Virus record (IMG/VR): IMGVR_UViG_3300008108_000654
Location: 1 to 28,312 of that record
DNA length: 28,312 bases
Source: a virus
Strand: one strand, 5' to 3'
In this document: positions 10,847-23,438 of the stretch, piece after piece
Layout of the letters: each line of letters begins with the position of its first letter
Numbering within the stretch: the first letter of the stretch is position 1
Notes under the pieces: generated by a model
Seen by the model: only the letters and a program-made list of their open reading frames with translations
The model's database searches: none
Told to the model about the DNA's origin: nothing
Made by a program: the position numbers and the translations under genes

Positions 10847-11026
10847 TTATTTATATGTTATTGTTACTGGACCACATAGTTCATTGTATCTATCTATCTC
10901 TGCAGTCTTCCGTGCCTTTTCCGCCTTCTTCCATTTTCTAAAAGAAGCTAGGGCGTGATTCTTATCCCGCCCATTGCCCTTCCATTTACGGGGTTTGCGT
11001 TGGCTAGAGCCCATACTTTTGGTCAT
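10847..11026 (-). CDS. Small very basic protein (59 aa)
   Basis: The start is placed at ATG 11026 (MTKSMGSSQRKPRKWKG), which overlaps the previous gene's stop by four bases (ATGA). A longer in-frame start at 11107 would overlap that gene by 85 bases and is unlikely. The protein is dense in Lys and Arg (RKWKKAEKARKTAEID), probably nucleic-acid binding. It is the promoter-distal gene of the leftward module. Confidence 0.6.
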   Translation of the reverse strand: MTKSMGSSQRKPRKWKGNGRDKNHALASFRKWKKAEKARKTAEIDRYNELCGPVTITYK

Positions 11027-11292
11027 GCTATGGGTTCGTGCATTTCTATTACTTCGGCAAGATGTGAGGCTAACATGAGAGCCTCTGAGGTAATACCCTC
11101 TGCCCAATATGGCTCAAAATTACCTGCTTGTTGCCTAATGATTTCTTTCATTAACTCCATTAGCCTGTCTTGGGTATATAGAGGAAATCTATTTACAATA
11201 ACACTAGCACAAATCATTGGATTAAACCAATGGTTGTCTAATACCGCTTGTAGTTGTTCTGCTATTTTATCTTCATCTGTTTTTTTAGCCAT
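11023..11292 (-). CDS. Hypothetical protein (89 aa)
   Basis: Starts MAKKTDEDKIAEQLQAVL and is predicted helical with no membrane segment. The start follows a GAAAGGCGGA ribosome site. A sigma-70-type promoter with TTGACC and TATAAT separated by 17 bases lies just upstream, and its -35 hexamer is within an inverted repeat. No family recognised. Confidence 0.65.
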   Translation of the reverse strand: MAKKTDEDKIAEQLQAVLDNHWFNPMICASVIVNRFPLYTQDRLMELMKEIIRQQAGNFEPYWAEGITSEALMLASHLAEVIEMHEPIA

Positions 11293-11309
11293 GTCCGCCT
11301 TTCACAAAG

Positions 11310-11338
11310 ATTATACCAAAAAGGTTGAAGAGGGTCAA
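11310..11338 (-). promoter_or_regulatory. Sigma-70-type promoter
   Basis: On the minus strand TTGACC (11333-11338), 17-base spacer, TATAAT (11310-11315). It drives the 11023-11292 gene. The -35 is part of the inverted repeat 11330-11357, so the site could serve both as upstream terminator and operator. Confidence 0.75.
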
Positions 11339-11357
11339 TATGGGGGTGTTGACCCTC
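11330..11357 (-). terminator. Inverted repeat: terminator and/or operator
   Basis: GAGGGTCAA (11330-11338) and TTGACCCTC (11349-11357) form a 9-bp stem with a 10-base loop, between the Lsr2-like gene stop and the next promoter. The following T-tract is weak and interrupted. Confidence 0.6.
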
Positions 11358-11373
11358 CCCAATGTTAGATAGT

Positions 11374-11520
11374 TTACTTAGACTTGGTAGGAAGCTCTTT
11401 AGTAAACTGTACGCCATTCTTTACAGCCTCTGATAGAGCCTGCTTAGCGGCACCTGAGAAGCGACCACGCTTTCCTACAGTAATGCCTTTGCTTACAAGA
11501 TATTCACGCTTTGTTGTCAT
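11374..11520 (-). CDS. Lsr2-like mini DNA-binding protein (48 aa)
   Basis: Encodes 48 residues: MTTKREYLVSKGITVGKRGRF and a basic helical remainder. The layout of an EYLVSKGI helix, then RGR, then a second helix resembles the C-terminal DNA-binding domain of actinobacterial Lsr2, which inserts an RGR loop into AT-rich minor grooves. No dimerisation domain is present, so it might compete with host Lsr2. The start has GAAAGG about seven bases upstream. The function is inferred from motif similarity alone. Confidence 0.6.
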   Translation of the reverse strand: MTTKREYLVSKGITVGKRGRFSGAAKQALSEAVKNGVQFTKELPTKSK

Positions 11521-11542
11521 TTGTGTTACCTTTCTAAAAACT

Positions 11543-11569
11543 GAGCTCCGCCTTGAAGACTCAGGTCCT
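11543..11569 (-). terminator. Terminator-like hairpin
   Basis: On the minus strand CTGAG...CTCAG with inner pairs and one mismatch is followed by TTTTT. It separates the 11590-11970 gene from the Lsr2-like gene. Confidence 0.5.
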
Positions 11570-11589
11570 GCGTTCTATATTAAGTTGTC

Positions 11590-11970
11590 TTACTCTGACT
11601 CTTCGTCAGAATTCTCTTCATCTAGCCAGTTATCATTTTCGAGGGCTACCAGGAAGTCGTTATCTCTCATCCAATCACGGATAGTCTCATCAATGATCTC
11701 AGATCCTAAATCTATTTGTATACCCAGACTTTCTGCGTCATCCCAGAATTTATCAAAAATTTGTCTGAATGAGACACCTTCAGCAATTACCTCATCTAAA
11801 TAATCTTCAGCCGTTTGATGTTGTTTAAAAATGTCATATAGGACATCAAATACCCAAACCCATACTAATGAAGGAAATACTGATAAATTAGATATCTGTG
11901 CCTGTATTTCTAATAAGTCATTAAATGTGTCATCCCTACGAGTTTTCTCCTGCATATCTAGTTCAGCCAT
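11590..11970 (-). CDS. Acidic hypothetical protein (126 aa)
   Basis: I choose the start MAELDMQEKTRRDD (ATG 11970) because GAAAGGA lies at the right distance and the start overlaps the upstream stop by eight bases; an in-frame ATG 18 bases earlier would place that ribosome site inside the gene. The protein is aromatic in the middle and ends in an acidic tail (DEENSDEESE). No family recognised. Confidence 0.62.
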   Translation of the reverse strand: MAELDMQEKTRRDDTFNDLLEIQAQISNLSVFPSLVWVWVFDVLYDIFKQHQTAEDYLDEVIAEGVSFRQIFDKFWDDAESLGIQIDLGSEIIDETIRDWMRDNDFLVALENDNWLDEENSDEESE

Positions 11971-12217
11971 TTTTTGCGGTCCTTTCATTTAGGGCGAATG
12001 CTAAATTATACGTCATAATATACAAATCTGTCAATGCGTCTAGTCGACCTGAAAGATATTGATATTGAGGATTATCATGTAATTCAGATGTGTCTAATAG
12101 TTTAGTTTCACATTCATACATCCAATTCTTTAATTCACCATGCATTATATTAGTTCCTGTTTCTCCCATATCTACCAGCTTTTGAAGATGTGGACTTAAT
12201 TCATCAGACATTATCAT
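11963..12217 (-). CDS. Hypothetical protein (84 aa)
   Basis: Starts MIMSDELSPHLQKLVDMG after a GGAGG ribosome site seven bases upstream. Predicted helical and soluble; no recognised domain. It overlaps the gene upstream by 14 bases and the gene downstream by eight. A complete sigma-70-type promoter (12005-12034) lies inside its coding sequence. Confidence 0.6.
   Translation of the reverse strand: MIMSDELSPHLQKLVDMGETGTNIMHGELKNWMYECETKLLDTSELHDNPQYQYLSGRLDALTDLYIMTYNLAFALNERTAKNG
12005..12034 (-). promoter_or_regulatory. Internal sigma-70-type promoter
   Basis: Minus strand TTGACA (12029-12034), 18-base spacer, TATAAT (12005-12010), about 35 bases before the ATG at 11970. It would allow independent expression of the 126-aa protein. 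Confidence 0.65.
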
Positions 12218-12374
12218 TTGCTACCTCCAATAGATGTTGAACGGTTTCAATAGAAGCCATAGTCTGTAGATAACCACCGTCATCCTCAGAGTAATATGTT
12301 TCCAGATCTTGTTCAAGACTAATTAAATGAAGTTTCATATATTCAATAATACTAGTAAGATTCACCTTGGACAT
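12204..12374 (-). CDS. Small hypothetical protein (56 aa)
   Basis: A 56-residue helical protein beginning MSKVNLTSIIEYMKLHL. It overlaps the stop region of the 53-aa gene upstream and the start of the 84-aa gene downstream, as expected in a coupled operon. No family recognised. Confidence 0.58.
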   Translation of the reverse strand: MSKVNLTSIIEYMKLHLISLEQDLETYYSEDDGGYLQTMASIETVQHLLEVANDNV

Positions 12375-12513
12375 ACCCTTCTGCTAATAGACCTTCGAAG
12401 AAGTCCCATATTGTTAGTAAACCTTGTTTTACTTTTGGGTCTGTGGCGGAATCAATAGCAGCAGTCAAAGCAATACCAAACTCCTGTATATCCCTATATG
12501 TATAACCTAGCAT
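12352..12513 (-). CDS. Small hypothetical protein (53 aa)
   Basis: Encodes MLGYTYRDIQEFGIALTAAI and a helical remainder of 53 residues in all. The start overlaps the upstream gene's stop by seven bases; the stop overlaps the next gene by 23 bases. No family recognised. Confidence 0.57.
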   Translation of the reverse strand: MLGYTYRDIQEFGIALTAAIDSATDPKVKQGLLTIWDFFEGLLAEGYVQGESY

Positions 12514-12725
12514 AAGAAATACTCATCCCCTTCTTTATATCCATAATATTCATTATAAGATTGTCTTACATTATCAGGAGCAAACTCCATAAATTTAAAT
12601 TCAGCATATTCTTCGCCTTCATCTAAATTATTATTTGACCAGTCCTCAAATAATTGTTGCTCTATATCAGCCTGGATTGCGTCTAATAACATTTGATTCA
12701 TGTTATCTGTAAACATTTCCGCCAT
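12507..12725 (-). CDS. Acidic hypothetical protein (72 aa)
   Basis: Starts MAEMFTDNMNQMLLDAIQAD and ends with a Tyr-rich tail (YNEYYGYKEGDEYFLC). It is the first gene of a five-gene leftward operon, has the CGAAAGGA leader and lies about 25 bases from a PafBC-type promoter. Its net negative charge invites comparison with DNA-mimic phage proteins, but this is speculative. Confidence 0.62.
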   Translation of the reverse strand: MAEMFTDNMNQMLLDAIQADIEQQLFEDWSNNNLDEGEEYAEFKFMEFAPDNVRQSYNEYYGYKEGDEYFLC

Positions 12726-12751
12726 ATATATCCTTTCGTTAGTATGACCTA

Positions 12752-12774
12752 ATTATATAACAGACCACTGACAT
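12752..12774 (-). promoter_or_regulatory. PafBC/RecA-NDp-type promoter
   Basis: Minus strand ATGTCAGTG-N8-TATAAT, matching TTGTCRGTG-N8-TAnnnT at all but the first base. Drives the 12725 operon. Confidence 0.8.
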
Positions 12775-13031
12775 TTGTATATAGGATATTGGTGTGTTTC
12801 ACACCACATTGTCCAAAGCTTGAGATTTCCAGGAAATATATTTGACTTCCGTAAAGCAAATATGCTACCCTCTCCAATTTGTGGGAAAAGGAAATCCCCC
12901 TTGGGACAAAGGGGGATTAAGATGAATGGCTGCTAGGACCTCAACGAAAGGAAAAACCTGCTTTACTTAGCATCTAGAATAGATGCACCATTCGTTTAAA
13001 TAGGCACAGGGCCTATCCAAATTATATCATA
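12775..13031. other. Gene-free segment with several hairpins
   Basis: No gene is seen. Hairpins include TGGTGTG/CACACCA near 12792, AATCCCCC/GGGGGATT (12893-12918), GCATCT/AGATGC (12970-12986) and ATAGGC/GCCTAT (13000-13016). GAATGG (12924-12929) and CCATTC (12988-12993) could close a larger multi-branch fold. The last hairpin probably terminates the gene ending at 13032. The rest may be a structured RNA. Confidence 0.5.
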
Positions 13032-13436
13032 TTAGACTAGCAGTCTTTCCAACGCATACTTCTCACAGAATGCTGTCAAGTCCATGGTAAAGATTGCTTC
13101 GTTTTTCATTCCTAGTACTTTGTTTTCTAGGTTCCTGTGATCGTCTTCTTCATGCAATGAGAACGTTTGGTCCTTCCAATTAATAACGGCGATCTTGTGC
13201 TCATTATCTCCAATTGAATTTACCTGCAGACCCCAGCCTGTCTCCATGTTCCATTGATCTCCGATTAAATAACTAATAGCAATGCGTGTTGCATATGATT
13301 CGTCATTCCATCTAGGACGTGCTGCTATTACAGCATCCGCCAATTTGCCTAGCATGTTATATCCAGCCCAGTGTCCGTATAAACAGATTGTGTCACCTGC
13401 TCCGTCTACGAATACAAAGTTTGCTCTGTCTCCCAT
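13032..13436 (-). CDS. Phage hypothetical protein (134 aa), MGDRANF-type
   Basis: Begins MGDRANFVFVDGAGDTICLYGHW, a start I associate with a family of uncharacterised actinobacteriophage proteins. Length 134 residues, mixed alpha/beta, no membrane segment. The ATG follows AAAGGCGG and lies two bases from the previous stop. The name reflects general recollection, not a search. Confidence 0.65.
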   Translation of the reverse strand: MGDRANFVFVDGAGDTICLYGHWAGYNMLGKLADAVIAARPRWNDESYATRIAISYLIGDQWNMETGWGLQVNSIGDNEHKIAVINWKDQTFSLHEEDDHRNLENKVLGMKNEAIFTMDLTAFCEKYALERLLV

Positions 13437-13437
13437 T

Positions 13438-13626
13438 TTAAACCGCCTTTTCTAGTTGAGGTACTTCTTCCGTTTTATTTAATTCTATCATTTCAAAGGC
13501 CCATTTGTCTAGGGTCTCTGAATTTTTATTTCTGTGATGTCCACAGAATGCCAGCTCACCACTTGTGCCACGAGCCAGCCATTTTGCCTGAGCTGAACAT
13601 TGATCACATTTGATCCATTCGCTCAT
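13438..13626 (-). CDS. DUF7455-like zinc-ribbon protein (62 aa)
   Basis: Starts MSEWIKCDQCSAQAKWLARG and continues to FCGHHRNK. The set CxxC (7-10) and CGHH (about 28-31) is typical of the short actinobacterial/phage zinc proteins grouped as DUF7455, whose role is unknown. It overlaps the 48-aa gene upstream by four bases and precedes the MGDRANF gene. Confidence 0.72.
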   Translation of the reverse strand: MSEWIKCDQCSAQAKWLARGTSGELAFCGHHRNKNSETLDKWAFEMIELNKTEEVPQLEKAV

Positions 13627-13769
13627 ATCTTATTGCTCTCTATCATGTCTGATAGTCTATCTATTAACCAAGCATCAATATCGTTGATATCAATCTCTCT
13701 TAGTTTTTCGATAAGTTCTTCACGGGCAAACTTATACCCGTCTTTGAATCCATCTCTATAATCAGACAT
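13623..13769 (-). CDS. Small hypothetical protein (48 aa)
   Basis: Encodes MSDYRDGFKDGYKFAREELI and a helical remainder. The DGF.DGY.FARE pattern is common in short phage proteins of unknown function. It overlaps both neighbours by a few bases. Confidence 0.6.
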   Translation of the reverse strand: MSDYRDGFKDGYKFAREELIEKLREIDINDIDAWLIDRLSDMIESNKI

Positions 13770-14001
13770 TTATCATCCTATCATATCTATATGCTAATTC
13801 ATTATCAGCATATTTACTTTCGATTAAAACCTTAAGTTGGTGCTTAGATATTAATCTAGTTACCTTCTCAATATTACCAGTTCCAATCTCGAAAGTCAAT
13901 GCATCTTTATCATATGAATCAGGATCTAAACCTCCAACCTCAGCGTCCCAAATAGAGAATTGGAACGCTTTGGCTGAATCTGCTTTTAACTTATAATACA
14001 T
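13762..14001 (-). CDS. Hypothetical protein (79 aa)
   Basis: The start is placed at MYYKLKADSAKAFQF (ATG 14001), which shares one base with the preceding stop (TAATG); the longer in-frame start overlaps the upstream gene by 37 bases. Mixed alpha/beta with acidic centre. No family recognised. Confidence 0.6.
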   Translation of the reverse strand: MYYKLKADSAKAFQFSIWDAEVGGLDPDSYDKDALTFEIGTGNIEKVTRLISKHQLKVLIESKYADNELAYRYDRMINV

Positions 14002-14456
14002 TAGTCCCAATCCACATCTGTGTCTTCGATTGACCAATCATTTACTTCAACATCATTTCCGTATGACGTTAAAGAAAGTTCATCACCAAGTTTATAATGA
14101 GCGTCAAAGTTATCAATCTCATCAAGTGGCACCTGGACCGTTACTTCAAAGTTAATAGTTCCAGTTACTGTAACTGTCTTTGATAGTTCAAATCCAAATA
14201 GTTCTGCTATTTGTTGAAGCGCTTCCTCTTTTGTATAATTAGGATTATACAATTCAACTAGAAGTTCTTCTAGGTCATTAACCTTAGATTTAAGGCTATT
14301 ATAGTTATCATTAGCACGGCGACCTTGATCTAAGGCCCACTCCAAATCAACTACCTTTTCGGTAATATATTCAGGTGCTTCAGGAGCAGCAAATGTTCCT
14401 GCGATCTTCTTATATGTAACAAGAAGATTTGGATTATATTCTACTGTTGTTTCCAT
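14001..14456 (-). CDS. Hypothetical coiled-coil-containing protein (151 aa)
   Basis: True start is METTVEYNPNLLVTYKK (ATG 14456), directly after GAAAGGAAATGA; an upstream in-frame extension to 14660 overlaps another gene. Residues about 35-75 look coiled-coil (LKSKVNDLEELLVELY), followed by a beta-rich domain with a Thr/Val repeat (VTVTGTINFEVTVQVPL). The acidic C-terminus ends DTDVDWD. Driven by the PafBC-type promoter at 14485-14507. Confidence 0.65.
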   Translation of the reverse strand: METTVEYNPNLLVTYKKIAGTFAAPEAPEYITEKVVDLEWALDQGRRANDNYNSLKSKVNDLEELLVELYNPNYTKEEALQQIAELFGFELSKTVTVTGTINFEVTVQVPLDEIDNFDAHYKLGDELSLTSYGNDVEVNDWSIEDTDVDWD

Positions 14457-14484
14457 TTCATTTCCTTTCGTTGTTGTTGGGAGT

Positions 14485-14507
14485 ATTGTAGCATCTTCTA
14501 CTGACAA
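14485..14507 (-). promoter_or_regulatory. PafBC/RecA-NDp-type promoter
   Basis: Minus strand TTGTCAGTA-N8-TACAAT, followed by the AACGAAAGGA leader and the ATG at 14456. Confidence 0.78.
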
Positions 14508-14565
14508 TAGGTTGCATTCGACACCACAGTGCCATATATTCCTAAACTCATCTTTACGTGTTACC

Positions 14566-15261
14566 TCAGCCTTGGTTACATTCAGAGCAGAATTCGCCAC
14601 AGTCATTATCACAGTAAGATAATGTATTAAAAGATTGGCAAGCATAACAACGGTTCTCATATTCTAAGAGTTCTGTTACCTCACCACGAAGAATCTCATA
14701 TTCTCCACCCCAACCTGTTTCTTCCTCAAACTCAAGAGTCAATACAGAGTTTGGAACCATGTTAGATAGTTTAGTTAAGATTGTAACGGCAGGTGACCAT
14801 GCAGTATTATACTTGTATATAACCCAGTTGTCTTCACCCTCTGATTTATATTCAAGTAATTCTGTATCAGGATATTCCTCATCATCTGATACGGCTACAT
14901 CCCACTTGGTTCCCCAATTAGAATTATTCCATGAATACCAATCTTTAGCAGTTTTAGCACGTTCAACAGATTTAGCAAACCAATCAGGTGAATCTAAATC
15001 TATACCTGTTCGGTCAGGTTGCTGTGCATACTCCTCATCTGTAATACCGTCATCTTTATATGAGTGGATATTAAAGAAAGCAAAGACAGGATTACTATAA
15101 GTAACCTCTTTAAATTTGGTCGGGAACCCATTAGCATTAATATCACCCATACCATGAGTCTCTATTGCTAATGTGAATGGAGCATTTAGTCTATCCTTGA
15201 TATAATCAATTTCTGACTTAGGTCCTTGGATAGTTAATGTGTTATATACCCAGTTTGGCAT
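14566..15261 (-). CDS. Api92-like phage protein with C-terminal zinc ribbon (231 aa)
   Basis: The start MPNWVYNTLTIQGPK (ATG 15261) follows AAAGGAAACAA; an in-frame ATG at 15345 lies upstream of the promoter and is rejected. The N-terminal MPNW..N.LT..G motif is typical of Api92-like/DUF1281 phage proteins, which have a ferredoxin-like fold and unknown role. The last ~30 residues carry five Cys (CYACQSF, CDNDC, CSEC), probably a zinc ribbon fused to the Api92 domain. Confidence 0.75.
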   Translation of the reverse strand: MPNWVYNTLTIQGPKSEIDYIKDRLNAPFTLAIETHGMGDINANGFPTKFKEVTYSNPVFAFFNIHSYKDDGITDEEYAQQPDRTGIDLDSPDWFAKSVERAKTAKDWYSWNNSNWGTKWDVAVSDDEEYPDTELLEYKSEGEDNWVIYKYNTAWSPAVTILTKLSNMVPNSVLTLEFEEETGWGGEYEILRGEVTELLEYENRCYACQSFNTLSYCDNDCGEFCSECNQG

Positions 15262-15286
15262 TTGTTTCCTTTCGTTGAATGTCGCA

Positions 15287-15309
15287 ATTGTATCAGAGTC
15301 GACTGACAT
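15287..15309 (-). promoter_or_regulatory. PafBC/RecA-NDp-type promoter
   Basis: Minus strand ATGTCAGTC-N8-TACAAT upstream of the Api92-like gene; AACGAAAGGA leader present. Confidence 0.75.
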
Positions 15310-15346
15310 TATCAAGGATTTTGGGGGATTAATTTTGTTTCTCATA

Positions 15347-15365
15347 AAGCGCCAAATTGGCGCTT
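15347..15365 (-). terminator. Terminator-like hairpin downstream of tRNA-Asp
   Basis: AAGCGCCAA and its complement TTGGCGCTT flank a single base, so a 7-bp stem with a 5-base loop would form. On the minus strand it follows tRNA-Asp by about 18 bases. Confidence 0.65.
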
Positions 15366-15383
15366 ACCTCTTGCGGGCATTTG

Positions 15384-15457
15384 CGACCCATAACGGACTT
15401 GAACCGTCGACCTCTACCGTGACAGGGTAGCGCTCTAACCAACTGAGCTAATGGGCC
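15384..15457 (-). tRNA. tRNA-Asp (anticodon GTC)
   Basis: Full cloverleaf on the minus strand: acceptor GGCCCAT/ATGGGTC with one G-U pair, anticodon stem CTACC/GGTAG around loop CTGTCAC, a TTC-type T-loop and discriminator G. The CCA end is not encoded. It lies between two hairpins in the leftward module and reads in the same direction. Confidence 0.95.
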
Positions 15458-15464
15458 TAGATGT

Positions 15465-15482
15465 GGGGCCCTTGCGGGCCCC
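15465..15482 (-). terminator. GC-rich hairpin after the DUF932 gene
   Basis: GGGGCCC (15465-15471) and GGGCCCC (15476-15482) pair around TTGC. It lies between the DUF932 stop and tRNA-Asp. There is no clear T-tract, so it might be a processing or partial termination signal. Confidence 0.65.
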
Positions 15483-15488
15483 ATTTAT

Positions 15489-16505
15489 TTATACTAGTTG
15501 CAATTTATTTTGTACAACTTTTAGTAAACGATTTTTTTCTGCGTTAATTGCAGGATCAAAACCGCTTGCAGATGCTAACATGTTTTCGGTGTTAGTACCA
15601 CGGGCATTGCGATGCCAGTCTAAACGCTCCGTTAAAGCATTAAGCGCACCCCATGCATTACCAGCGATTGTATGATTAAATTCGCCAGTATAAATATCGT
15701 TAATTAAATTAACTTTATTTTCCCATTTCTTGATTGCACCCTTAACGTCTTTATCAGGCTTTGGATATGCAGCAAGAATGATTTCGTTAAATTGTTGAGC
15801 GGTAATCTCCGTCTCAATCATTAACTTAGCCATTTGATCGAATTTATCCATGTATGCATTAGCAAGACCTAAAGTCTCACGGGCAACTTGAATGCGACCT
15901 TCTGCTGATTGTGTATGGCGGATTTTGAAAGTTTGCTTAACGCCATCTCTCTTTTTAATATTACCCAATGCAAGATTGAGAGTATTAGCACACACAACAC
16001 GAACGGGTGTTATAGATGCTTGAATTGCAATTGATCCATCATGTGATGTATTGATTAGCAAATATGTTTTAACCACATCTGCCACGCCACTAGGATCCAG
16101 CACGGTCTCACGCTCTAAAGCAAGAGATCCAAATACAACACGTCCGCCACGGATTGAGCCAGCGGTCTCCCATCGTCCACCACCATCTAGGATATTATCG
16201 CCGAATGCGAATAAATCCTCATTTTGCAATGGTACATAACGCTCACCGACAATTCCTAAAACATCGGTTTGTGTTGCATCCGTAGGATTAGTACGAACGA
16301 CATATTGATAATTCTTATCGGATGTTAAAGTATTTGGAATTTCTAAATCTTCCAATCTAACATTCCATCCATTAAGATTTGCAGCAACTAGCATTTCGCT
16401 AGTATTTTTTTCTTCTGTGAACACGGTACCTAAACCATGCCATGCAGGTTCACGAAATGATGCAAAACTTGCAACACCATTTTGTGATTCTAGTTCATGA
16501 GCCAT
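15489..16505 (-). CDS. DUF932 phage/plasmid-like protein
   Basis: This 338-residue protein starts MAHELESQNGVASFASFREP and shows the DUF932 pattern: WHGLGTVF near residue 22, a central region with YVPLQNEDLFAFGD, GGRVVFGSLAL and a conserved CANTLNLAL segment (about 172). The family is widespread in actinophages and plasmids. Its function is not established, though it often sits near replication and early genes. The start has GAAAGGA, and a PafBC-type promoter lies about 30 bases upstream. Confidence 0.88.
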   Translation of the reverse strand: MAHELESQNGVASFASFREPAWHGLGTVFTEEKNTSEMLVAANLNGWNVRLEDLEIPNTLTSDKNYQYVVRTNPTDATQTDVLGIVGERYVPLQNEDLFAFGDNILDGGGRWETAGSIRGGRVVFGSLALERETVLDPSGVADVVKTYLLINTSHDGSIAIQASITPVRVVCANTLNLALGNIKKRDGVKQTFKIRHTQSAEGRIQVARETLGLANAYMDKFDQMAKLMIETEITAQQFNEIILAAYPKPDKDVKGAIKKWENKVNLINDIYTGEFNHTIAGNAWGALNALTERLDWHRNARGTNTENMLASASGFDPAINAEKNRLLKVVQNKLQLV

Positions 16506-16532
16506 TTTTATCCTTTCGTTTTGAGTTGCCTT

Positions 16533-16555
16533 ATTCTAGCATACATGACTGACAT
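16533..16555 (-). promoter_or_regulatory. PafBC/RecA-NDp-type promoter
   Basis: Minus strand ATGTCAGTC-N8-TAGAAT, driving the DUF932 gene; AACGAAAGGA leader present. Confidence 0.77.
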
Positions 16556-16610
16556 CTGGCAATACTGTTAGACATTCCAGGGATTTTTTAAACTTGACAT
16601 AAACGCAAAA

Positions 16611-16634
16611 ATGCCCCCACAGCTTTTGCGGGCA
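16611..16634 (-). terminator. Terminator-like hairpin
   Basis: On the minus strand GCCC...GGGC with a mismatched stem is followed by ATTTTT. It is the second of two tandem hairpins after the 16675 gene. Confidence 0.5.
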
Positions 16635-16641
16635 GGGAAAT

Positions 16642-16667
16642 GGGCCAGGGAGCAAGGACCCTGGCCC
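16642..16667 (-). terminator. Strong terminator hairpin
   Basis: GGGCCAGGG (16642-16650) pairs with CCCTGGCCC (16659-16667) around eight bases, directly after the stop of the 16675 gene; followed on the minus strand by ATTT. Confidence 0.75.
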
Positions 16668-16674
16668 AAGATTA

Positions 16675-16887
16675 TTAGATTAGAGAATGAATCTCTTCAG
16701 GAAAATATGCAGCAAATATTTTTTTATTTTCTTTTGTATCAACTACATATGCTTTTATTGTTCCTTGAAAACGTTTTAAGTTTTCTTTTACTATATTAGT
16801 TATCTTTGCACGATTTAAGTTTTCAGTATAGTATAAAGTTAAATCATGAGATTTATTTGCGTCGTAGATTTCTACACGATACCGCAT
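16675..16887 (-). CDS. Small hypothetical protein (70 aa)
   Basis: Starts MRYRVEIYDANKSHDLTLYY; mixed alpha/beta, basic. AAAGGAAA precedes the ATG. Its promoter may be TAGACA-N18-TAAAAT, with the -35 inside the upstream terminator stem. It is one of the few leftward units lacking the PafBC-type motif. No family recognised. Confidence 0.62.
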   Translation of the reverse strand: MRYRVEIYDANKSHDLTLYYTENLNRAKITNIVKENLKRFQGTIKAYVVDTKENKKIFAAYFPEEIHSLI

Positions 16888-16926
16888 CTGTTTCCTTTGT
16901 TAGTAGGGATAACTATTTTAACATAA

Positions 16927-16949
16927 GGGGCTAGATTTTGTCTAGCCCC
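16927..16949 (-). terminator. Terminator hairpin
   Basis: GGGGCTAGA (16927-16935) and TCTAGCCCC (16941-16949) pair around TTTTG, after the 16958 gene stop. The stem also contains a plausible -35 (TAGACA) for the next gene. Confidence 0.78.
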
Positions 16950-16957
16950 CCATTTAA

Positions 16958-17380
16958 TTACAAGTATCTTGCGATAGCGTTGTAAGTGCTTGTGCTGACT
17001 ACTTCCTCATCGGTCATTTTGAGAATACGGATAGCGTTCTCCATCTCCTCTTTCATTTCACGATAAGTATGAGTATGTATTTGCTCATAATCACGCTCAG
17101 GCTCTTTTGGAAAATCCTTCTCATCGCATATAAGGTCAAAATCTACATTGAGAGTTTTGTTCCAAGAGCGATAGTTGGTGCGTAGGTTTTCTGCTTTTGC
17201 TATTTGAGCAACGGCATACTTCCCAAGTTCCTTTGACCATTTTTCATGGGCTTTTTTATACTTTGCTTCGTTTTCATCTTGTTTTTTATAGTCAGCCTCT
17301 ACTTGTGCTAACTTTGCTTCTAAGGCTTTAATAACCTTAGCAGTAGGTATTTTTACCTGTATTGCTTTTCCTCTTGCCAT
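16958..17380 (-). CDS. Coiled-coil hypothetical protein (140 aa)
   Basis: Starts MARGKAIQVKIPTAKVIKAL. Residues about 15-60 are Lys/Glu/Ala-rich and strongly helical, consistent with a coiled coil; a second helical region follows (YREMKEEMENAIRILK). No domain recognised. ACGAAAGGGA leader, and a full-consensus PafBC-type promoter upstream. Confidence 0.65.
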   Translation of the reverse strand: MARGKAIQVKIPTAKVIKALEAKLAQVEADYKKQDENEAKYKKAHEKWSKELGKYAVAQIAKAENLRTNYRSWNKTLNVDFDLICDEKDFPKEPERDYEQIHTHTYREMKEEMENAIRILKMTDEEVVSTSTYNAIARYL

Positions 17381-17406
17381 TGTGTCCCTTTCGTTAGGTT
17401 GTTTGT

Positions 17407-17429
17407 ATTATAGTGGATACCACCGACAA
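17407..17429 (-). promoter_or_regulatory. PafBC/RecA-NDp-type promoter, full consensus
   Basis: Minus strand TTGTCGGTG-N8-TATAAT. The motif lies inside the inverted repeat GTGGATACC/GGTATCCAC (17413-17440), so upstream terminator and promoter share the same DNA. Confidence 0.88.
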
Positions 17430-17440
17430 GCGGTATCCAC
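17413..17440 (-). terminator. Hairpin overlapping the PafBC-type promoter
   Basis: Nine-base arms (17413-17421, 17432-17440) around a 10-base loop, just after the stop of the 51-aa gene. A run of T is lacking. Confidence 0.55.
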
Positions 17441-17446
17441 CAAGTA

Positions 17447-17602
17447 TTAGTTAGCGTATGCGCTAGTCCAGCGTTCCTTACCATTTACATCTAATAAGAT
17501 GCGGTAAGTTCCAGATGGGTGATTATCAATAGCCTTGATAATTCCAGTAATACCACTTTGGGTGGTTGTGTAGGTTTGACCTACTTCTAGTATGTCTTTC
17601 AT
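17447..17602 (-). CDS. Small hypothetical protein (51 aa)
   Basis: Encodes MKDILEVGQTYTTTQSGITG and a beta-rich remainder (YRILLDVNGKERWTS) resembling a small SH3/KOW-like barrel; this resemblance is inference. AAAGGAAAAAA precedes the ATG, with a full-consensus PafBC-type promoter upstream. Confidence 0.65.
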   Translation of the reverse strand: MKDILEVGQTYTTTQSGITGIIKAIDNHPSGTYRILLDVNGKERWTSAYAN

Positions 17603-17626
17603 TTTTTTCCTTTCGTTTGAGGTTGT

Positions 17627-17649
17627 ATTATAGCACCAGCCACCGACAA
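17627..17649 (-). promoter_or_regulatory. PafBC/RecA-NDp-type promoter, full consensus
   Basis: Minus strand TTGTCGGTG-N8-TATAAT, abutting the stop codon of the upstream gene (17650-17652). ACCGAC/GTCGGT (17642-17661) forms a small inverted repeat across the junction. Confidence 0.88.
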
Positions 17650-17919
17650 TTAGTAGTCGGTTTCAGGTAGCCACGATTCTAGGTGATGCGCCTCTATGAT
17701 TGCTGAGGCAGGTGCTTGATCTCTACCCTTCCACAATACGCCTTGAGGTAATACGATCATTTTATCGTAGTCGTCCTCATAGTAGGCATCGATAGCATCG
17801 ATACATGGTTGTACCATTGATGCGGGTACGGGCGGGTAATGATTGCTTTGTAAGTGTATTAGGATTGCTTGATCTAAGTCAAAACTCTCCGCTAAGTCCA
17901 TTGCTGTATTTAGTCCCAT
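17650..17919 (-). CDS. Hypothetical protein (89 aa)
   Basis: Starts MGLNTAMDLAESFDLDQAIL. Predicted helical, acidic, with a C-terminal EAHHLESW motif. GAGGAG lies about 12 bases before the ATG. The start adjoins the stop of a 23-aa frame. No family recognised. Confidence 0.62.
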   Translation of the reverse strand: MGLNTAMDLAESFDLDQAILIHLQSNHYPPVPASMVQPCIDAIDAYYEDDYDKMIVLPQGVLWKGRDQAPASAIIEAHHLESWLPETDY

Positions 17920-17991
17920 TTATTCTAACTCCTCTAGTATAGTTTCGGATAGGTTTTCCATTTCGCTAATACTATCAACAAGGTCTGACAT
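17920..17991 (-). CDS. Possible micro-protein (23 aa)
   Basis: A short acidic frame (MSDLVDSISEMENLSETILE plus three residues) whose stop abuts the next ATG, with AGAGAAAG upstream. Plausible as a coupled micro-ORF but too short to be certain. Confidence 0.35.
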   Translation of the reverse strand: MSDLVDSISEMENLSETILEELE

Positions 17992-18002
17992 TTCTTTCTC
18001 TG

Positions 18003-18065
18003 TTAATCCTCATCATATATTGCTTTCTTTGTAGCCTCTGCTAATGATATTGCTGTTGCTAACAT
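18003..18065 (-). CDS. Micro-protein (20 aa) behind a PafBC-type promoter
   Basis: A 20-residue helical peptide (MLATAISLAEATKKAIYDED) has the module's standard AACGAAAGGA leader and a near-consensus promoter directly upstream. This supports translation despite its length. Confidence 0.45.
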   Translation of the reverse strand: MLATAISLAEATKKAIYDED

Positions 18066-18091
18066 ATTTTCCTTTCGTTGGTGATGGGCTG

Positions 18092-18114
18092 ATTATACAC
18101 CAGCCCACCGACAT
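18092..18114 (-). promoter_or_regulatory. PafBC/RecA-NDp-type promoter
   Basis: Minus strand ATGTCGGTG-N8-TATAAT, three bases after the upstream gene's stop codon. Confidence 0.83.
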
Positions 18115-18116
18115 TA

Positions 18117-18377
18117 TTAGGCTAGTGTTATAAGAGCCTGCGTAGCAAACTCGTTGGCAATATCTAACTTTGCCTGGATTTCATCCTTTGTCATATCAGC
18201 AGGATTACCCATAAACTCATAAATTGCGTCTTTGTTAAATTTTAAAAATACGCCAGCAGGTAATTTTTCTACCCTTGGATAGAATTCCCCTTTTGGGTCA
18301 AGCATAGAGTTAAATTTAACTCCATTAACTTCGAATGGGTAAGAGACCCAAGTCGTCGTGTCTAGCATTGTTATCAT
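18117..18377 (-). CDS. Hypothetical protein (86 aa)
   Basis: Starts MITMLDTTTWVSYPFEVNGV; beta-rich N-terminal half then a helical C-terminus (DEIQAKLDIANEFATQAL). AAAGGA is correctly spaced for the ATG at 18377. Own PafBC-type promoter. No family recognised. Confidence 0.62.
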   Translation of the reverse strand: MITMLDTTTWVSYPFEVNGVKFNSMLDPKGEFYPRVEKLPAGVFLKFNKDAIYEFMGNPADMTKDEIQAKLDIANEFATQALITLA

Positions 18378-18403
18378 TTATTTCCTTTCGTTTGATTAGT
18401 GGA

Positions 18404-18426
18404 ATTATAGCAGGACTAACTGACAT
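18404..18426 (-). promoter_or_regulatory. PafBC/RecA-NDp-type promoter
   Basis: Minus strand ATGTCAGTT-N8-TATAAT, upstream of the 18117-18377 gene. Confidence 0.78.
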
Positions 18427-18480
18427 TTTATAACGACACGCTGTAAATTTCAGGGTGTTTTATATCACATTCTTAACGAC

Positions 18481-18510
18481 ACGCCCGACCCCGCAGCTTT
18501 TGTGGGCGCC
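18481..18510 (-). terminator. GC-rich imperfect hairpin
   Basis: CCCGCA and TGTGGG flank GCTTTT, within the gap after the 43-aa gene. It resembles the hairpin at 16611-16634. Probable terminator for the 19425-18528 operon, though the T-run is poor. Confidence 0.45.
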
Positions 18511-18527
18511 GAACATTTGTTCTAATA

Positions 18528-18659
18528 TTATCTAGAAGCTTTTTTGTGTTTTATTTTTCTAGTATATTTTTTTTTATTGCGAATAGGTTGCGCCGCATTT
18601 GATCGACGCAACTCTTGAATTCGTTTTACTTTATCTAGAATTAAATTGGGGGATATCAT
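18528..18659 (-). CDS. Small very basic protein (43 aa)
   Basis: A frame starting MISPNLILDKVKRIQELRRS and ending in a Lys/Arg-rich tail (RNKKKYTRKIKHKKASR). GAGG lies upstream within the preceding gene, which it overlaps by 29 bases. The charge suggests nucleic-acid binding. Easily missed because of its size. Confidence 0.5.
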   Translation of the reverse strand: MISPNLILDKVKRIQELRRSNAAQPIRNKKKYTRKIKHKKASR

Positions 18660-18822
18660 AACCGCTAGCCTCGTAGAATTTATTTACATTAAAATTAGAA
18701 TTCTCTTTAGCACACAACTCCGCAAAATCTAAAACCATTTTAGAAAAAATAGCGGGGTGAGTTTTATCTGAGTTATATTTTAAAATTGCAGCGATTTCGT
18801 TAAAGTGTTTTCTTGTCATCAT
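18631..18822 (-). CDS. Small phage protein, MTRKHF-type (63 aa)
   Basis: Starts MMTRKHFNEIAAILKYNSDK and continues through a helical stretch (MVLDFAELCAKENSNFN) to a short NKFYEASGY element. This MTRKHF...FA.....N.NF.. layout is common in small phage and plasmid proteins of unknown function. ATGA overlap with the upstream gene. Confidence 0.7.
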   Translation of the reverse strand: MMTRKHFNEIAAILKYNSDKTHPAIFSKMVLDFAELCAKENSNFNVNKFYEASGYDIPQFNSR

Positions 18823-19019
18823 TTTGCTGATACCAATCCAATCTGATTAAAGTTTTTTGTGTACATTTTGCCACTAGGCATTTCTAAATTATATGTTGCG
18901 TATTCTTTAGCAAACCCATGATCTTTACATTTAGCAAAAGCCTCAAACGCTTCTAATGCGTCAGAGAATTGATGTGTAAATTCTAGGTTTCCGTCGTAGT
19001 AAGTAAATAGTTTAAACAT
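18819..19019 (-). CDS. Hypothetical protein (66 aa)
   Basis: Start chosen at MFKLFTYYDGNLEFTHQF (ATG 19019), which shares one base with the upstream stop (TAATG); an in-frame ATG at 19052 overlaps more. Small alpha/beta protein, no recognised family. Confidence 0.62.
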   Translation of the reverse strand: MFKLFTYYDGNLEFTHQFSDALEAFEAFAKCKDHGFAKEYATYNLEMPSGKMYTKNFNQIGLVSAK

Positions 19020-19222
19020 TAAATCCCCCAAGTTTCTAAAGCGCAATCGCAACTTTTAACGTCAAATTCTTTTTCATCTCCATAGAATACAAATCCTGCG
19101 CCACCGCATTCATCCAACTCTAACCCAATTTCTAAATTTAATAATTCTGAAGGGGTGGCTTCAGATAAATCTACCCAGCCAGCACCCTCATCATTTAGGC
19201 GAAAAATTTCTATATATCCCAT
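19019..19222 (-). CDS. Hypothetical protein (67 aa)
   Basis: Starts MGYIEIFRLNDEGAGWVDLS; acidic, with a late CDC pair (KSCDCALETW). Coupled by one-base overlaps to both neighbours. No recognised family. Confidence 0.62.
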   Translation of the reverse strand: MGYIEIFRLNDEGAGWVDLSEATPSELLNLEIGLELDECGGAGFVFYGDEKEFDVKSCDCALETWGI

Positions 19223-19425
19223 TACTCACCAACTTTCACCGCTATTGTGCGGAATTTATTCTTTAGAGTATGAGCAGAATAAATTTCTACCAAATACGCT
19301 TCCGTATTTTCTCCATACCAAATTGGTTGATTAGATTTCTCTGCTGAGATAATTTCTCCAGTAAGAGTTTTTGAATTATAGGTTTTACCAATTAATAAAT
19401 CCTGAATTGTGTATAAATTAGCCAT
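19222..19425 (-). CDS. Hypothetical protein (67 aa)
   Basis: Starts MANLYTIQDLLIGKTYNSKT; beta-rich. First gene of a five-gene coupled run, with the AACGAAAGGA leader and a PafBC-type promoter. Lies immediately left of the DnaA-box cluster. Confidence 0.63.
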   Translation of the reverse strand: MANLYTIQDLLIGKTYNSKTLTGEIISAEKSNQPIWYGENTEAYLVEIYSAHTLKNKFRTIAVKVGE

Positions 19426-19451
19426 TTAAGTTTTCCTTTCGTTATGTCGTT

Positions 19452-19474
19452 ATTTTAACATAAGCCACCGACAA
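19452..19474 (-). promoter_or_regulatory. PafBC/RecA-NDp-type promoter
   Basis: Minus strand TTGTCGGTG-N8-TAAAAT. A second GTGTCGGTGG lies just upstream (19488-19497). Confidence 0.83.
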
Positions 19475-19491
19475 TTACCACCGACACGCCG

Positions 19492-19657
19492 TAAATTACA
19501 AGAATGTAATTATGTGTTCTTAATCACATGAGTTATCCACGACACGCCCGAAGTTTTCCACAGATTTTCAGGGTTTTCCACAATCTGTTCATAAACCTGT
19601 GGATAACCGCCCACAAAAAGCTAGGGGCAGCTATCGCCTTTGTCAAGGCGACACGCC
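19492..19657. other. Candidate replication origin: DnaA-box cluster with CGACACGCC repeats
   Basis: Four DnaA-box-like 9-mers lie within 74 bases: TTATCCACG (19533-19541), TTTTCCACA (19554-19562), TTTTCCACA (19574-19582) and, inverted, TTATCCACA (19598-19606). Three match TTWTNCACA exactly. CGACACGCC occurs at 19492, 19540 and 19649, with further copies at 18434 (partial) and 18477. The segment is free of convincing genes. Confidence 0.65.
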
Positions 19658-19659
19658 GT

Positions 19660-19758
19660 TTATTCTTTGTTAGTTTGCTCACACACGCATTTAGTATATG
19701 CGCCAGCGTTAAGCCTACCGCATTTAGGGCATGTATAGAAACCGCTAGGGTTAGCCAT
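19660..19758 (-). CDS. Zinc-ribbon mini-protein (32 aa)
   Basis: Encodes MANPSGFYTCPKCGRLNAG followed by a second Cys pair (KCVC). A one-zinc ribbon of 32 residues. TAATG overlap with the secreted-peptide gene upstream; the right edge of the candidate origin adjoins its stop. Confidence 0.6.
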   Translation of the reverse strand: MANPSGFYTCPKCGRLNAGAYTKCVCEQTNKE

Positions 19759-19892
19759 TACCTACCCCACTTATATCCTACTAGATCGCAAGCGTATCCG
19801 TCTGCGGTATTGTGGCAGTTAGCATAGATAGGCTCTGAGAAGGCGGAGAAGGTGAGTAGCCCTATTACTAGGGCTAAGCATAGTTTAATCAT
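19758..19892 (-). CDS. Small secreted protein (44 aa)
   Basis: Starts MIKLCLALVIGLLTFSAFSE: a short basic N-terminus, hydrophobic core and small residues before a possible cleavage site, i.e. a signal peptide. The mature part (about 20 residues) has two Cys (NCHN, YACD) that could form a disulphide. Function unknown; one-base overlaps with both neighbours. Confidence 0.6.
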   Translation of the reverse strand: MIKLCLALVIGLLTFSAFSEPIYANCHNTADGYACDLVGYKWGR

Positions 19893-20032
19893 TACTTACG
19901 ACCTCTCCACAATTTAACACCAACTACAACAACTAGAGCGGTGGCAATACTTAGCCAATTAAACTCTGTATAAAACCACTCTGTAGAAATTGTTAATCCG
20001 AAATCGCTTACCTCTAAATCAAAGTAAATCAT
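19892..20032 (-). CDS. Single-pass membrane protein (46 aa)
   Basis: Starts MIYFDLEVSDFGLTISTEWF and has a membrane segment at about residues 26-40 (LSIATALVVVVGV) followed by a basic tail (KLWRGRK), suggesting a cytosolic C-terminus. Overlaps neighbours by one base. Unknown role. Confidence 0.58.
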   Translation of the reverse strand: MIYFDLEVSDFGLTISTEWFYTEFNWLSIATALVVVVGVKLWRGRK

Positions 20033-20205
20033 TATTCAGCACTCTCCCAATCTAGTGTTAATTCATTTTCGATTATCTCATCAAGGCTAATTATGTCCTC
20101 ATCAAATAGCGTTTCGCTATTGTGTTTATCTAACGCCTCTAATTCGTCTAAGTGGCGATAAGCGTCTGATATGTCTGCTTGAATAGTGTCCCATTTAGTC
20201 ATCAT
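20032..20205 (-). CDS. Acidic hypothetical protein (57 aa)
   Basis: A very acidic helical protein starting MMTKWDTIQADISDAYRHLD. Coupled by one-base overlaps to both neighbours. No family recognised. Confidence 0.58.
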   Translation of the reverse strand: MMTKWDTIQADISDAYRHLDELEALDKHNSETLFDEDIISLDEIIENELTLDWESAE

Positions 20206-20297
20206 TAGTTATCCTCACTTTCGTCAATTCCGAACATCTCAGCAAACACTTTGTTTGCTTGTTGTAGTGCCTCTAGGGCTTCGTTTATCTTATCCAT
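20205..20297 (-). CDS. Micro-protein (30 aa)
   Basis: Starts MDKINEALEALQQANKVFAE; a single acidic amphipathic helix. It is the first gene of a five-gene run and has the module's CGAAAGAAGG leader and a PafBC-type promoter, which supports expression. Confidence 0.55.
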   Translation of the reverse strand: MDKINEALEALQQANKVFAEMFGIDESEDN

Positions 20298-20330
20298 TTT
20301 CTTACCTTCTTTCGTTGTTGTTATGGTGAA

Positions 20331-20353
20331 ACCTTAGCATACCCTACCGACAA
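20331..20353 (-). promoter_or_regulatory. PafBC/RecA-NDp-type promoter with weak -10
   Basis: Minus strand TTGTCGGTA-N8-TAAGGT. It lies inside the inverted repeat GCATACCC/GGGTATGC (20337-20368). Confidence 0.72.
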
Positions 20354-20368
20354 GGCGCAAGGGTATGC
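20337..20368 (-). terminator. Hairpin overlapping a PafBC-type promoter
   Basis: GCATACCC (20337-20344) pairs with GGGTATGC (20361-20368) around 16 bases, after the stop of the 36-aa gene. Confidence 0.5.
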
Positions 20369-20381
20369 GGTGTGATGTTGC

Positions 20382-20492
20382 TCACCAACAAGATGAGCAA
20401 GAGCAATGGGACTTATGTCCCTTAGTAAAGGGAACATGAGCAGGGCCTTGACCCTGATAGTCCTCACATGTTAAGCATGTATTGTTATTCAT
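20382..20492 (-). CDS. Cysteine-rich mini-protein (36 aa)
   Basis: Encodes MNNNTCLTCEDYQGQGPAHV and a C-terminal cluster HKSHCSCSSCW, five cysteines and three histidines in total, so metal binding is likely. GAAAGGA lies about eight bases before the ATG. It is the first gene of the whole leftward module. Confidence 0.58.
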   Translation of the reverse strand: MNNNTCLTCEDYQGQGPAHVPFTKGHKSHCSCSSCW

Positions 20493-20525
20493 AGTTATAT
20501 CCTTTCGTTGATATTGTTTGAGCGG

Positions 20526-20567
20526 TTATTTGCTAGGCTCACCTTTCGGATTATTTGCTAGGCTCAC
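20526..20567. repeat. 17-bp direct repeat, two copies
   Basis: TTATTTGCTAGGCTCAC at 20526-20542 and 20551-20567, 25 bases apart, in the long leader of the 36-aa gene. Possible operator or RNA-level element. Confidence 0.85.
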
Positions 20568-20598
20568 GCTCTAATTCTTATTTAATTGTTATAGTATA

Positions 20599-20621
20599 AC
20601 TCTACACGCAAGGACTGACAT
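20599..20621 (-). promoter_or_regulatory. PafBC/RecA-NDp-type promoter
   Basis: Minus strand ATGTCAGTC-N8-TAGAGT; the first leftward promoter of the module, with a ~100-base leader containing the 17-bp repeats. Confidence 0.7.
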
Positions 20622-20809
20622 TTTTCAAGTCGCAAATCGGACATGTCGGACATTTTGAAAAAAACTTTTAAAAATATAGGTGATATACCTCACATATGGT
20701 CGCTCTATCTGGACAAATCGGACATTTCAAACATGTGTATCATACAAATAAAATCTCTATTAACATTTTATGAAATCTGATATTATAGTCGACTAGAATA
20801 TATATAAGA

Positions 20810-20821: not shown

Positions 20822-21484
20822 ATGTCTGAAATACCAAAAATAATGTGGCAGACCCATGAGTGGGAATATGAAAACCTACCAGATATATATCTAAAAAATA
20901 CTCAATCCTGGAAAGAGCATAATCCAGATTGGGAGTATAGATATCATAATTCGGGGGAACGGAGATCTTTTTTAATTAAAAATAAATTCTTACGTTCTCA
21001 GAAATCAATAGATCTATATGACAAAATGGACAAACAGCTTCAGTCTGAAATATGGAGAGCTGGTGTTATATGGTTCTATGGTGGTGCTTATATTGATATG
21101 GATTCCGTCCCAAGAGAAATGAATCTTTTAAACAAATCTATAGAAAATGCAGAAAGTTTAAATAAGCCATATAGCATTATTTGTACAAATGATTCGATGC
21201 ATCTTAAAATCGGCTGCAATAACGCTCACTTCATAGGTAAGAAAAACTCAGAGTTTCTTAGGGCGCTTTTGGATAAATACGAATTACCGCTTCATAAAGA
21301 ATGGCCAGCGCACAATGAAGATATACATATACAAAGAATAGAGTTTATTGTAAATTCAAAAAATTTTGCGAGGATGGCACTTTATAGAGATGATATAGCT
21401 TTTGTTTTTGGCGATGTCTTTCATGGAGATGATTACAAACCAGAAAATTGGCGTGAATTAACTGACGCTTTTTATAAAATATAG
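20822..21484 (+). CDS. GT32-type glycosyltransferase
   Basis: A 220-residue protein starting MSEIPKIMWQTHEWEYENLP. The N-terminal IPKIMWQT, the central WRAGVIWFYGGAYIDMDSVP with the metal-binding D92-x-D94, and the preceding SWKEHNPDWEYR are the hallmarks of the GT32/OCH1-like mannosyltransferase fold (sugar-nucleotide transfer to glycans). A phage copy might decorate virion proteins or alter host surface glycans. Leaderless-type start. tRNA genes follow 14 bases after the stop. Confidence 0.87.
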   Translation: MSEIPKIMWQTHEWEYENLPDIYLKNTQSWKEHNPDWEYRYHNSGERRSFLIKNKFLRSQKSIDLYDKMDKQLQSEIWRAGVIWFYGGAYIDMDSVPREMNLLNKSIENAESLNKPYSIICTNDSMHLKIGCNNAHFIGKKNSEFLRALLDKYELPLHKEWPAHNEDIHIQRIEFIVNSKNFARMALYRDDIAFVFGDVFHGDDYKPENWRELTDAFYKI

Positions 21485-21498: not shown

Positions 21499-21571
21499 TG
21501 GTCCATAGCTCAGTTGGCAGAGCGCAGAGCTGTTAACTCTGATGTCCCAGGTTCGAGCCCTGGTGGACCAG
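21499..21571 (+). tRNA. tRNA-Asn (anticodon GTT)
   Basis: Cloverleaf with acceptor TGGTCCA/TGGACCA, D-stem GCTC/GAGC, anticodon stem CAGAG/CTCTG around CTGTTAA, T-arm CCAGG/CCTGG and discriminator G. CCA is not encoded. Confidence 0.95.
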
Positions 21572-21576
21572 CATAT

Positions 21577-21648
21577 GGCTTCATCGTCTATCGGTTAGGA
21601 CATCGCCCTTTCACGGCGGAAAGACGGGTTCGATTCCCGTTGGAGCTA
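21577..21648 (+). tRNA. tRNA-Glu (anticodon TTC)
   Basis: Cloverleaf with acceptor GGCTTCA/TGGAGCT (two G-U pairs), anticodon stem TCGCC/GGCGG around CTTTCAC, T-arm ACGGG/CCCGT. Five bases after tRNA-Asn, so both probably come from one precursor. Confidence 0.93.
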
Positions 21649-21655
21649 CTTTTGC

Positions 21656-22276: not shown

Positions 22277-22458
22277 TATCAAGGGGTTAAACTCCAAGTG
22301 CGACAATGACGGAAATGTTATTAGTCTGGTAATCTAATCCATAGATTATTCAACCGATGAATTGCAGGCTTACAACCTTAAAAGACAATTTCGGGGTCCT
22401 TTTCCAAAAAAGGGGTGTAGGGGTTGTATGCTCCAAATCTGGAAATACCAGTAAGTGA

Positions 22459-22464
22459 TATAAT
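22459..22464 (+). promoter_or_regulatory. -10 element, leaderless-type
   Basis: TATAAT nine bases before ATG 22474. Confidence 0.5.
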
Positions 22465-22473
22465 TATATATAT

Positions 22474-23175: not shown

Positions 23176-23204
23176 TTGACTAAGATATATATCAGATATA
23201 TAAT
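23176..23204 (+). promoter_or_regulatory. Sigma-70-type promoter
   Basis: TTGACT (23176-23181), 17-base spacer, TATAAT (23199-23204), six bases before ATG 23211. The -35 starts one base after the upstream gene's stop. Confidence 0.72.
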
Positions 23205-23210
23205 ACATAT

Positions 23211-23294
23211 ATGAACTCTATTTATCAGAAATTAGTGGCAAGCTGTTTAATCATTATGATGGCGTATATAGCATTTGCCTTCATTGCAGGTTAA
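23211..23294 (+). CDS. Single-pass membrane micro-protein (27 aa)
   Basis: Encodes MNSIYQKLVASCLIIMMAYI plus AFAFIAG: one membrane helix. A good promoter places its start codon at the transcript 5' end, which supports it as a gene despite its size. Confidence 0.5.
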   Translation: MNSIYQKLVASCLIIMMAYIAFAFIAG

Positions 23295-23438
23295 ATTTAA
23301 AATAGCCTTTAAAAGCCTTCTAAGGCCTATATCCCAATTTATTGGGTATATTGGTAGGGGTAAGTATGGGTCTTCTACTTCCGCCGCACTGAAATTTTTG
23401 CAATTGCACTTATTGAGAGGATTTAGTACTCTATAACC

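Follow-up and report, generated by a model that had tools for sequence, protein, structure and literature searches.

A leftward gene module of a large virus probably uses the PafBC-type DNA-damage promoters of its actinobacterial host

What controls the leftward gene module of IMGVR_UViG_3300008108_000654, a 28.3-kb IMG/VR virus record that, as such, represents a fragment and was analyzed over its entire length (hereafter, the window)? An initial annotation had listed eleven minus-strand sites in this module at which TGTCRGT is followed at fixed spacing by a TAnnnT -10 element and had assigned them to the DNA-damage promoter that actinobacteria use with the help of PafBC. This promoter class, termed RecA-NDp (Gamulin 2004, as cited in PMC5656591), has the published consensus tTGTCRgtg-8 nt-TAnnnT (PMC5656591). 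PafBC is activated by single-stranded DNA (ssDNA) and does not bind promoters alone; with its help, the housekeeping holoenzyme can rely on a -26 element instead of the -35 element (PMC11804915). Our comparisons make it quite likely that the phage module co-opts host PafBC through RecA-NDp (P1-type) promoters.

An exact search of the window for TGTCRGT-N9-TAnnnT recovered precisely the eleven listed sites, all on the minus strand and none on the plus strand, versus a mean of 0.13 and a maximum of 1 in 100 dinucleotide shuffles, the comparison that the initial annotation had proposed as a check. With one mismatch permitted, 16 sites were obtained versus 3.6 expected. The shuffles, controls with the reversed pattern and the distribution of spacings together rule out a chance origin in AT-rich DNA. 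The complete form, TTGTCGGTG-N8-TATAAT/TAAAAT, is indeed present at three of the eleven sites (17407, 17627 and 19452). The claim that the sites lie directly before leftward genes stands for ten of them, with a start codon ~23-33 nt past the -10 element, whereas the outermost one (20599) is 106 nt away from its start codon, and several of the genes served are very short (20-51 aa). The leader reported as usual proved to be shared, with AACGAAAG found downstream of all eleven sites, AACGAAAGG in ten and AACGAAAGAAGG at 20331. Consistent with the earlier observation that the rightward arms lack the element, none of 17 genes tested outside the module is preceded by such a site. As these include leftward genes at 24-27 kb, the signal is specific to the module and not to the strand. 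The LexA box CGAAC-N4-GTTCG was searched for and is absent from the window, and LexA/SOS control of the module was rejected on this basis.

The same architecture recurs in related viruses. When viral contigs were scanned for TGTCRGT followed, after 4-14 nt, by TAnnAT and, after a further gap, by AACGAAAGG, at least 120 stretches were obtained. Among the matches listed, TAnnnT lay exactly 9 nt past TGTCRGT in 339 of 340 cases with the leader and in 596 of 724 regardless of it, with offsets of 8 and 10 near zero; across the relatives, the -26 and -10 elements keep virtually the same distance. Because the pattern itself had helped to choose these loci, 80 loci identified by homology of their DUF932 protein served as the independent test; they contain 378 sites, versus 2 for the reversed pattern. 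Motif-rich, near-complete contigs of 112-117 kb carry 10-17 sites each, nearly all on one strand and in one 13-kb stretch. From 371 non-redundant sites, the profile WWWTGTCRGTGG-N4-yTGcTATAAT was obtained. At positions that were free of selection, it shows G at +7 in 64%, G at +8 in 61% and the G of an extended -10 element in 75% of the sites; copies of TGTCRGT without a nearby -10 element mostly have A at +7. The profile thus agrees with the published PafBC consensus, including positions unused in the selection, and adds the extended -10 element. Among isolated DUF932 actinophages, the motif is absent from six of the eight examined; TunaTartare has one match, with the reversed control matching as well, and Microbacterium phage Bush has two, both without AT-rich context. 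A megablast search of the window against phage records gave no match.

The virus probably infects freshwater actinobacteria, and its likely host, at the level of the order, is an acI/Nanopelagicales actinobacterium, as suggested by synteny with the Stanwilliamsviridae (see below), the presence of WhiB and the similarity of KatG. WhiB, regarded as an actinophage marker (PMC10202952), is encoded by the near-complete relative G066 (E 2e-11). The full-length catalase-peroxidase (KatG-like) gene of the window (5011-7047, plus strand) is closest to that of the acI isolate IMCC25003 (64% identity). This order is equipped with the activator: WYL genes occur in 61 of 61 Nanopelagicales genomes tested, mostly as adjacent PafB-PafC-type pairs. 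The pair of IMCC25003 matches Mycobacterium smegmatis PafB (E 4.5e-40) and, in a PDB search, the Arthrobacter PafBC crystal structure (E 6e-27); it adjoins a tatC gene, named from its sequence, and NCBIfam gave no name to the acI proteins. The same promoter precedes recA and carD in IMCC25003, the latter with a phage-like AACGAAGGG leader. About half of 30 Nanopelagicales recA upstream regions contain TGTCAG...TAnnnT, with a LexA box directly after it. The strict consensus derived from the phages returned 30 sites in 20 of 41 host-order genomes (reversed control, 0), an average of less than one per genome, and the downstream genes, where callable, are mainly recA, followed by carD. As a separate observation, GCGTGTCG recurs near some of the phage promoters (18440-19700, minus strand), and CGACACGC (or CGACACAC), its reverse complement, is found in many acI genomes at a distance of ~20 nt before the -26 element of recA.

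In the mechanism that we propose, the host housekeeping RNA polymerase would use the -26 element TGTCRGTGG together with the extended -10 element, with ssDNA-loaded host PafBC inserted between the -26 DNA and sigma region 4, so that about a dozen module genes would be placed under the ssDNA-sensing activator of the host. Because it has the same DNA-damage promoter as host recA, the module is probably switched on by the ssDNA that builds up as DNA is copied or suffers damage. The initial annotation had gone further in proposing that the phage takes its timing from replication intermediates or damage to host DNA. Its promoter assignment is strongly supported by the consensus, the spacing, the recA promoters of the host order, the PafBC pair and the lack of a phage WYL protein; that ssDNA from damage or replication may set the timing fits the known mode of PafBC activation. 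PafBC dependence in vivo, the timing and the action of the small RNA described below are what we infer from sequence. Similar to the mycobacterial recA RecA-NDp/P1 promoter of the PafBC regulon (PMC5656591, PMC11804915), the phage sites combine the consensus and its spacing with an activator in the inferred host order, but they serve a phage module and not DNA repair, lie in an AT-rich context, usually have an extended -10 element and read TGTCRGTGG.

The relationship between the promoter elements is in line with a -26 element that takes over from the -35 hexamer. Matches to the latter amount to 2.90 at sites with GG after TGTCRGT, versus a background of 2.49, and to 3.74 at sites with C. A canonical -35 element is thus near background where the -26 element is strongest and better developed at other sites; the GG class has weaker -35 hexamers than the remaining sites (p 8e-6), and the difference between G and non-G sites survives stricter thinning (p 0.001, 0.02). 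Extended -10 elements are commoner at non-G sites. Since weaker -26 elements go along with better -35 hexamers, the two appear to substitute for each other. Three states exist upstream of the DUF932 gene in relatives: a -35 with a decayed -26 element, both elements together, and a -26 element with a weak -35. Three sites in the window match the -35 hexamer at five of six positions, and all three carry C at +7.

Several points weigh against PafBC control or limit its reach. The second-best match of the catalase-peroxidase, at 63% identity, is to a Saprospiraceae. The number of sites per DUF932 locus ranges from 0 to 13, which shows that phages of this group can do without the element. The compensation test loses strength under stricter thinning, with p 0.08 for its extended -10 part at the strictest level, and sites with a usable -35 hexamer (~1/3 of the promoters) may work partly without PafBC. 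One could regard the sites as ordinary sigma-A promoters from which the host holoenzyme transcribes as soon as the DNA enters, with TGTCRGT as a spacer aid to the extended -10 element and PafBC uninvolved. The frequency of extended -10 elements, the -35/-10 promoters at the homologous place in Streptomyces relatives and the presence of TTGACA or TTGCAT 17 nt from the -10 element at several acI-phage sites speak for this explanation, which we nevertheless consider unlikely, given that the element is identical to the RecA-NDp consensus, in its free positions and exact spacing as well, that this consensus is rare in the host order and located at recA and carD, and that the -35 hexamer weakens where the -26 element is strong.

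It is also conceivable that a phage-encoded activator with PafB-like specificity uses the sites. A parallel is provided by the T4 middle promoters (sigma appropriation by MotA/AsiA), where an upstream element likewise replaces the -35 hexamer for the housekeeping holoenzyme across a module-wide promoter class, and phages often carry their own middle-gene activators. Motif-rich phages indeed have clade-specific small genes that motif-poor ones lack, although this comparison is confounded by phylogeny. One of them is a ~50-aa candidate open reading frame (ORF) that looks like the DNA-binding C-terminal domain of Lsr2 (window ~11420-11520, minus strand), whose homolog occurs in five motif-rich phages and is absent from five motif-poor ones. 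However, no phage-encoded PafBC or sigma factor was found: WYL proteins are absent from all 24 related phage records, and sigma region 4 gave no match above the cut-off in the 13 records tested, with the MotA/AsiA families not searched. The motif, moreover, is the same as that of the recA promoter of the host, down to the extended -10 element, which leaves such a factor rather improbable; unlike MotA/AsiA, the activator here would be host-encoded and ssDNA-sensing. Finally, numerous sites on replicating phage DNA might act as decoys that divert activated PafBC-RNA polymerase from host repair genes, with expression being secondary. The ratio of 10-17 sites per motif-rich phage genome to less than one strict-consensus site per host genome would suit this idea, but the leader at every window site and the fixed distance to the start codon at most of them are those of working promoters, making it very improbable.

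The proposed co-option of host PafBC appears to be a feature of one lineage within a more widely shared module. The relative G066 (113 kb; DUF932 protein 90% identical) shows genome-wide synteny with Streptomyces phage Jay2Jay of the Stanwilliamsviridae (identities: capsid 58%, portal 57%, terminase 57%, ribonucleotide reductase 66%), and within the window the match to this family is confined to the DUF932 gene, a single small ORF and the neighboring glycosyltransferase. In Jay2Jay, a homologous DUF932 gene and a leftward module with promoters ahead of many genes are located within an exact 11,438-bp direct terminal repeat. Its promoters read TTGTAT/TTGCAT-N17-TAGACT, and no TGTCRGT-N9-TAnnnT was found in its module. 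The two groups thus have the module layout in common but differ in their promoters, and only the aquatic lineage probably possesses the -26 element. The host-takeover module of SPO1-type phages sits in the terminal redundancy. Like the present module, it comprises numerous small genes and recurrent promoters, and its position corresponds to that of the terminal-repeat module of Jay2Jay; the promoter class here, by contrast, is of the DNA-damage type. By analogy, a terminal-repeat module may act early in infection, which would need ssDNA at entry or promoters bearing a -35 hexamer.

The common leader suggests a second layer of shared control. A small RNA (z-score -4.2) with its own TATAAT and an intrinsic terminator is encoded within the module; an Rfam scan returned tRNAs only and no known family for the small RNA. 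Its homologs can be aligned, show compensatory changes in a GGUGC...GC helix and contain an invariant CUUUCGUU. Extended by a 5' C, this motif gives CCUUUCGUU, the exact reverse complement of the AACGAAAGG leader that follows ten of the eleven promoters, and the copy in the small RNA is the only one on its strand of the window (0.06 expected). A covariance model detected the small RNA in 30 of 100 pattern loci, among the matches listed, and in the DUF932 set in four of four tested loci with many AACGAAAGG leaders versus 0 of 73 in which such leaders are few or absent. In phage G083, ten leaders occur without a homolog of the small RNA; its only same-strand CUUUCGUU belongs to a different, unrelated 14-bp hairpin, whose loop displays CCUUUCGUU (L399:15695-15770, minus strand), a single occurrence that could be due to chance. 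Module transcripts sharing the AACGAAAGG leader could thus pair with the module-encoded small RNA, which could block or help their translation. This pairing is put forward as a working hypothesis, because the predicted consensus also permits internal pairing of CUUUCGUU. More tentatively still, this may be a lytic phage with a two-layer regulon of a kind that whole groups of aquatic actinophages would carry: host PafBC, sensing ssDNA from phage replication or host DNA breakdown, would fire about a dozen promoters simultaneously, and CUUUCGUU of the small RNA would pair with the AACGAAAG leaders to set translation.

Table 1. Predicted features of the leftward module (window coordinates)
Feature	Position	Strand	Remarks
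Leftward module	11023..20620	-	promoter-bearing part 12752-20620, ~8 kb
PafBC-type promoter (-26 to -10) TGTCAGTCCTTGCGTGTAGAGT	20599..20620	-	-35-like TTGAAA-N18; 106 nt to 36-aa ORF
PafBC-type promoter TGTCGGTAGGGTATGCTAAGGT	20331..20352	-	30-aa ORF; leader AACGAAAGAAGG
PafBC-type promoter TTGTCGGTG-GCTTATGT-TAAAAT	19452..19473	-	full consensus, weak -35; 67-aa gene 19222-19425
PafBC-type promoter	18404..18425	-	gene 18117-18377
PafBC-type promoter TGTCGGTGGGCTGGTGTATAAT	18092..18113	-	weak -35; 20-aa ORF
PafBC-type promoter TTGTCGGTG-GCTGGTGC-TATAAT	17627..17648	-	full consensus, weak -35; 51-aa ORF
PafBC-type promoter TTGTCGGTG-GTATCCAC-TATAAT	17407..17428	-	full consensus, weak -35; gene 16958-17380
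PafBC-type promoter of DUF932 gene	16533..16554	-	also -35-like TTGCCA-N18
PafBC-type promoter	15287..15308	-	also -35-like TTGATA-N17; gene with DUF1281_C/Api92-like domain
PafBC-type promoter	14485..14506	-	weak -35; gene starting at 14456
PafBC-type promoter TGTCAGTGGTCTGTTATATAAT	12752..12773	-	gene 12507-12725
DUF932 protein, 338 aa	15489..16505	-	best phage match Streptomyces Stanwilliamsviridae, 54-55% identity
AACGAAAGG leader, example	12732..12740	-	
Other nine AACGAAAGG leaders (plus-strand start)	14464, 15268, 16512, 17387, 17609, 18071, 18384, 19435, 20501	-	
Conserved structured small RNA	12886..13015	-	-10 TATAAT 13021-13026; terminator ~12893-12918; CCUUUCGUU at 12943-12951

Further elements were noted in and around the module. 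ATGTCCGATTTGT repeats occur at both of its ends (~10820 and ~20640-20730), and many relatives have similar ATGTCCGATTT elements ahead of the DUF932 promoter; GTGAGCCTAGCAAATAA is present twice, as a short direct repeat, inside the long leader of the outermost promoter (20530-20570, minus strand). The window additionally encodes glycosyltransferases (20822-21484 and 27207-28196), tRNA-Asp, tRNA-Asn and tRNA-Glu (15383-15457, minus strand; 21499-21649, plus strand) and a 2OG-Fe(II) oxygenase confirmed only at 8020-8862 (PF13640, E 5.9e-6), with look-alikes at 1437-9724 and 21668-25917 as unconfirmed candidates.

To our knowledge, the ties of phages to bacterial DNA-damage control are known mainly via RecA/LexA and prophage induction. 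The promoter class itself is known; its deployment by a phage module, or any phage use of PafBC promoters, was not found in the literature searched. The proposal is testable in M. smegmatis, for which PafBC mutants and in vitro systems exist. If true, expression of the module would be coupled to replication or to the destruction of host DNA, with no need for a regulator of the phage's own. The module appears to be wired to a second damage pathway, whose activator is switched on directly by ssDNA, providing a handle on the phages of acI, which are among the most abundant freshwater bacteria.

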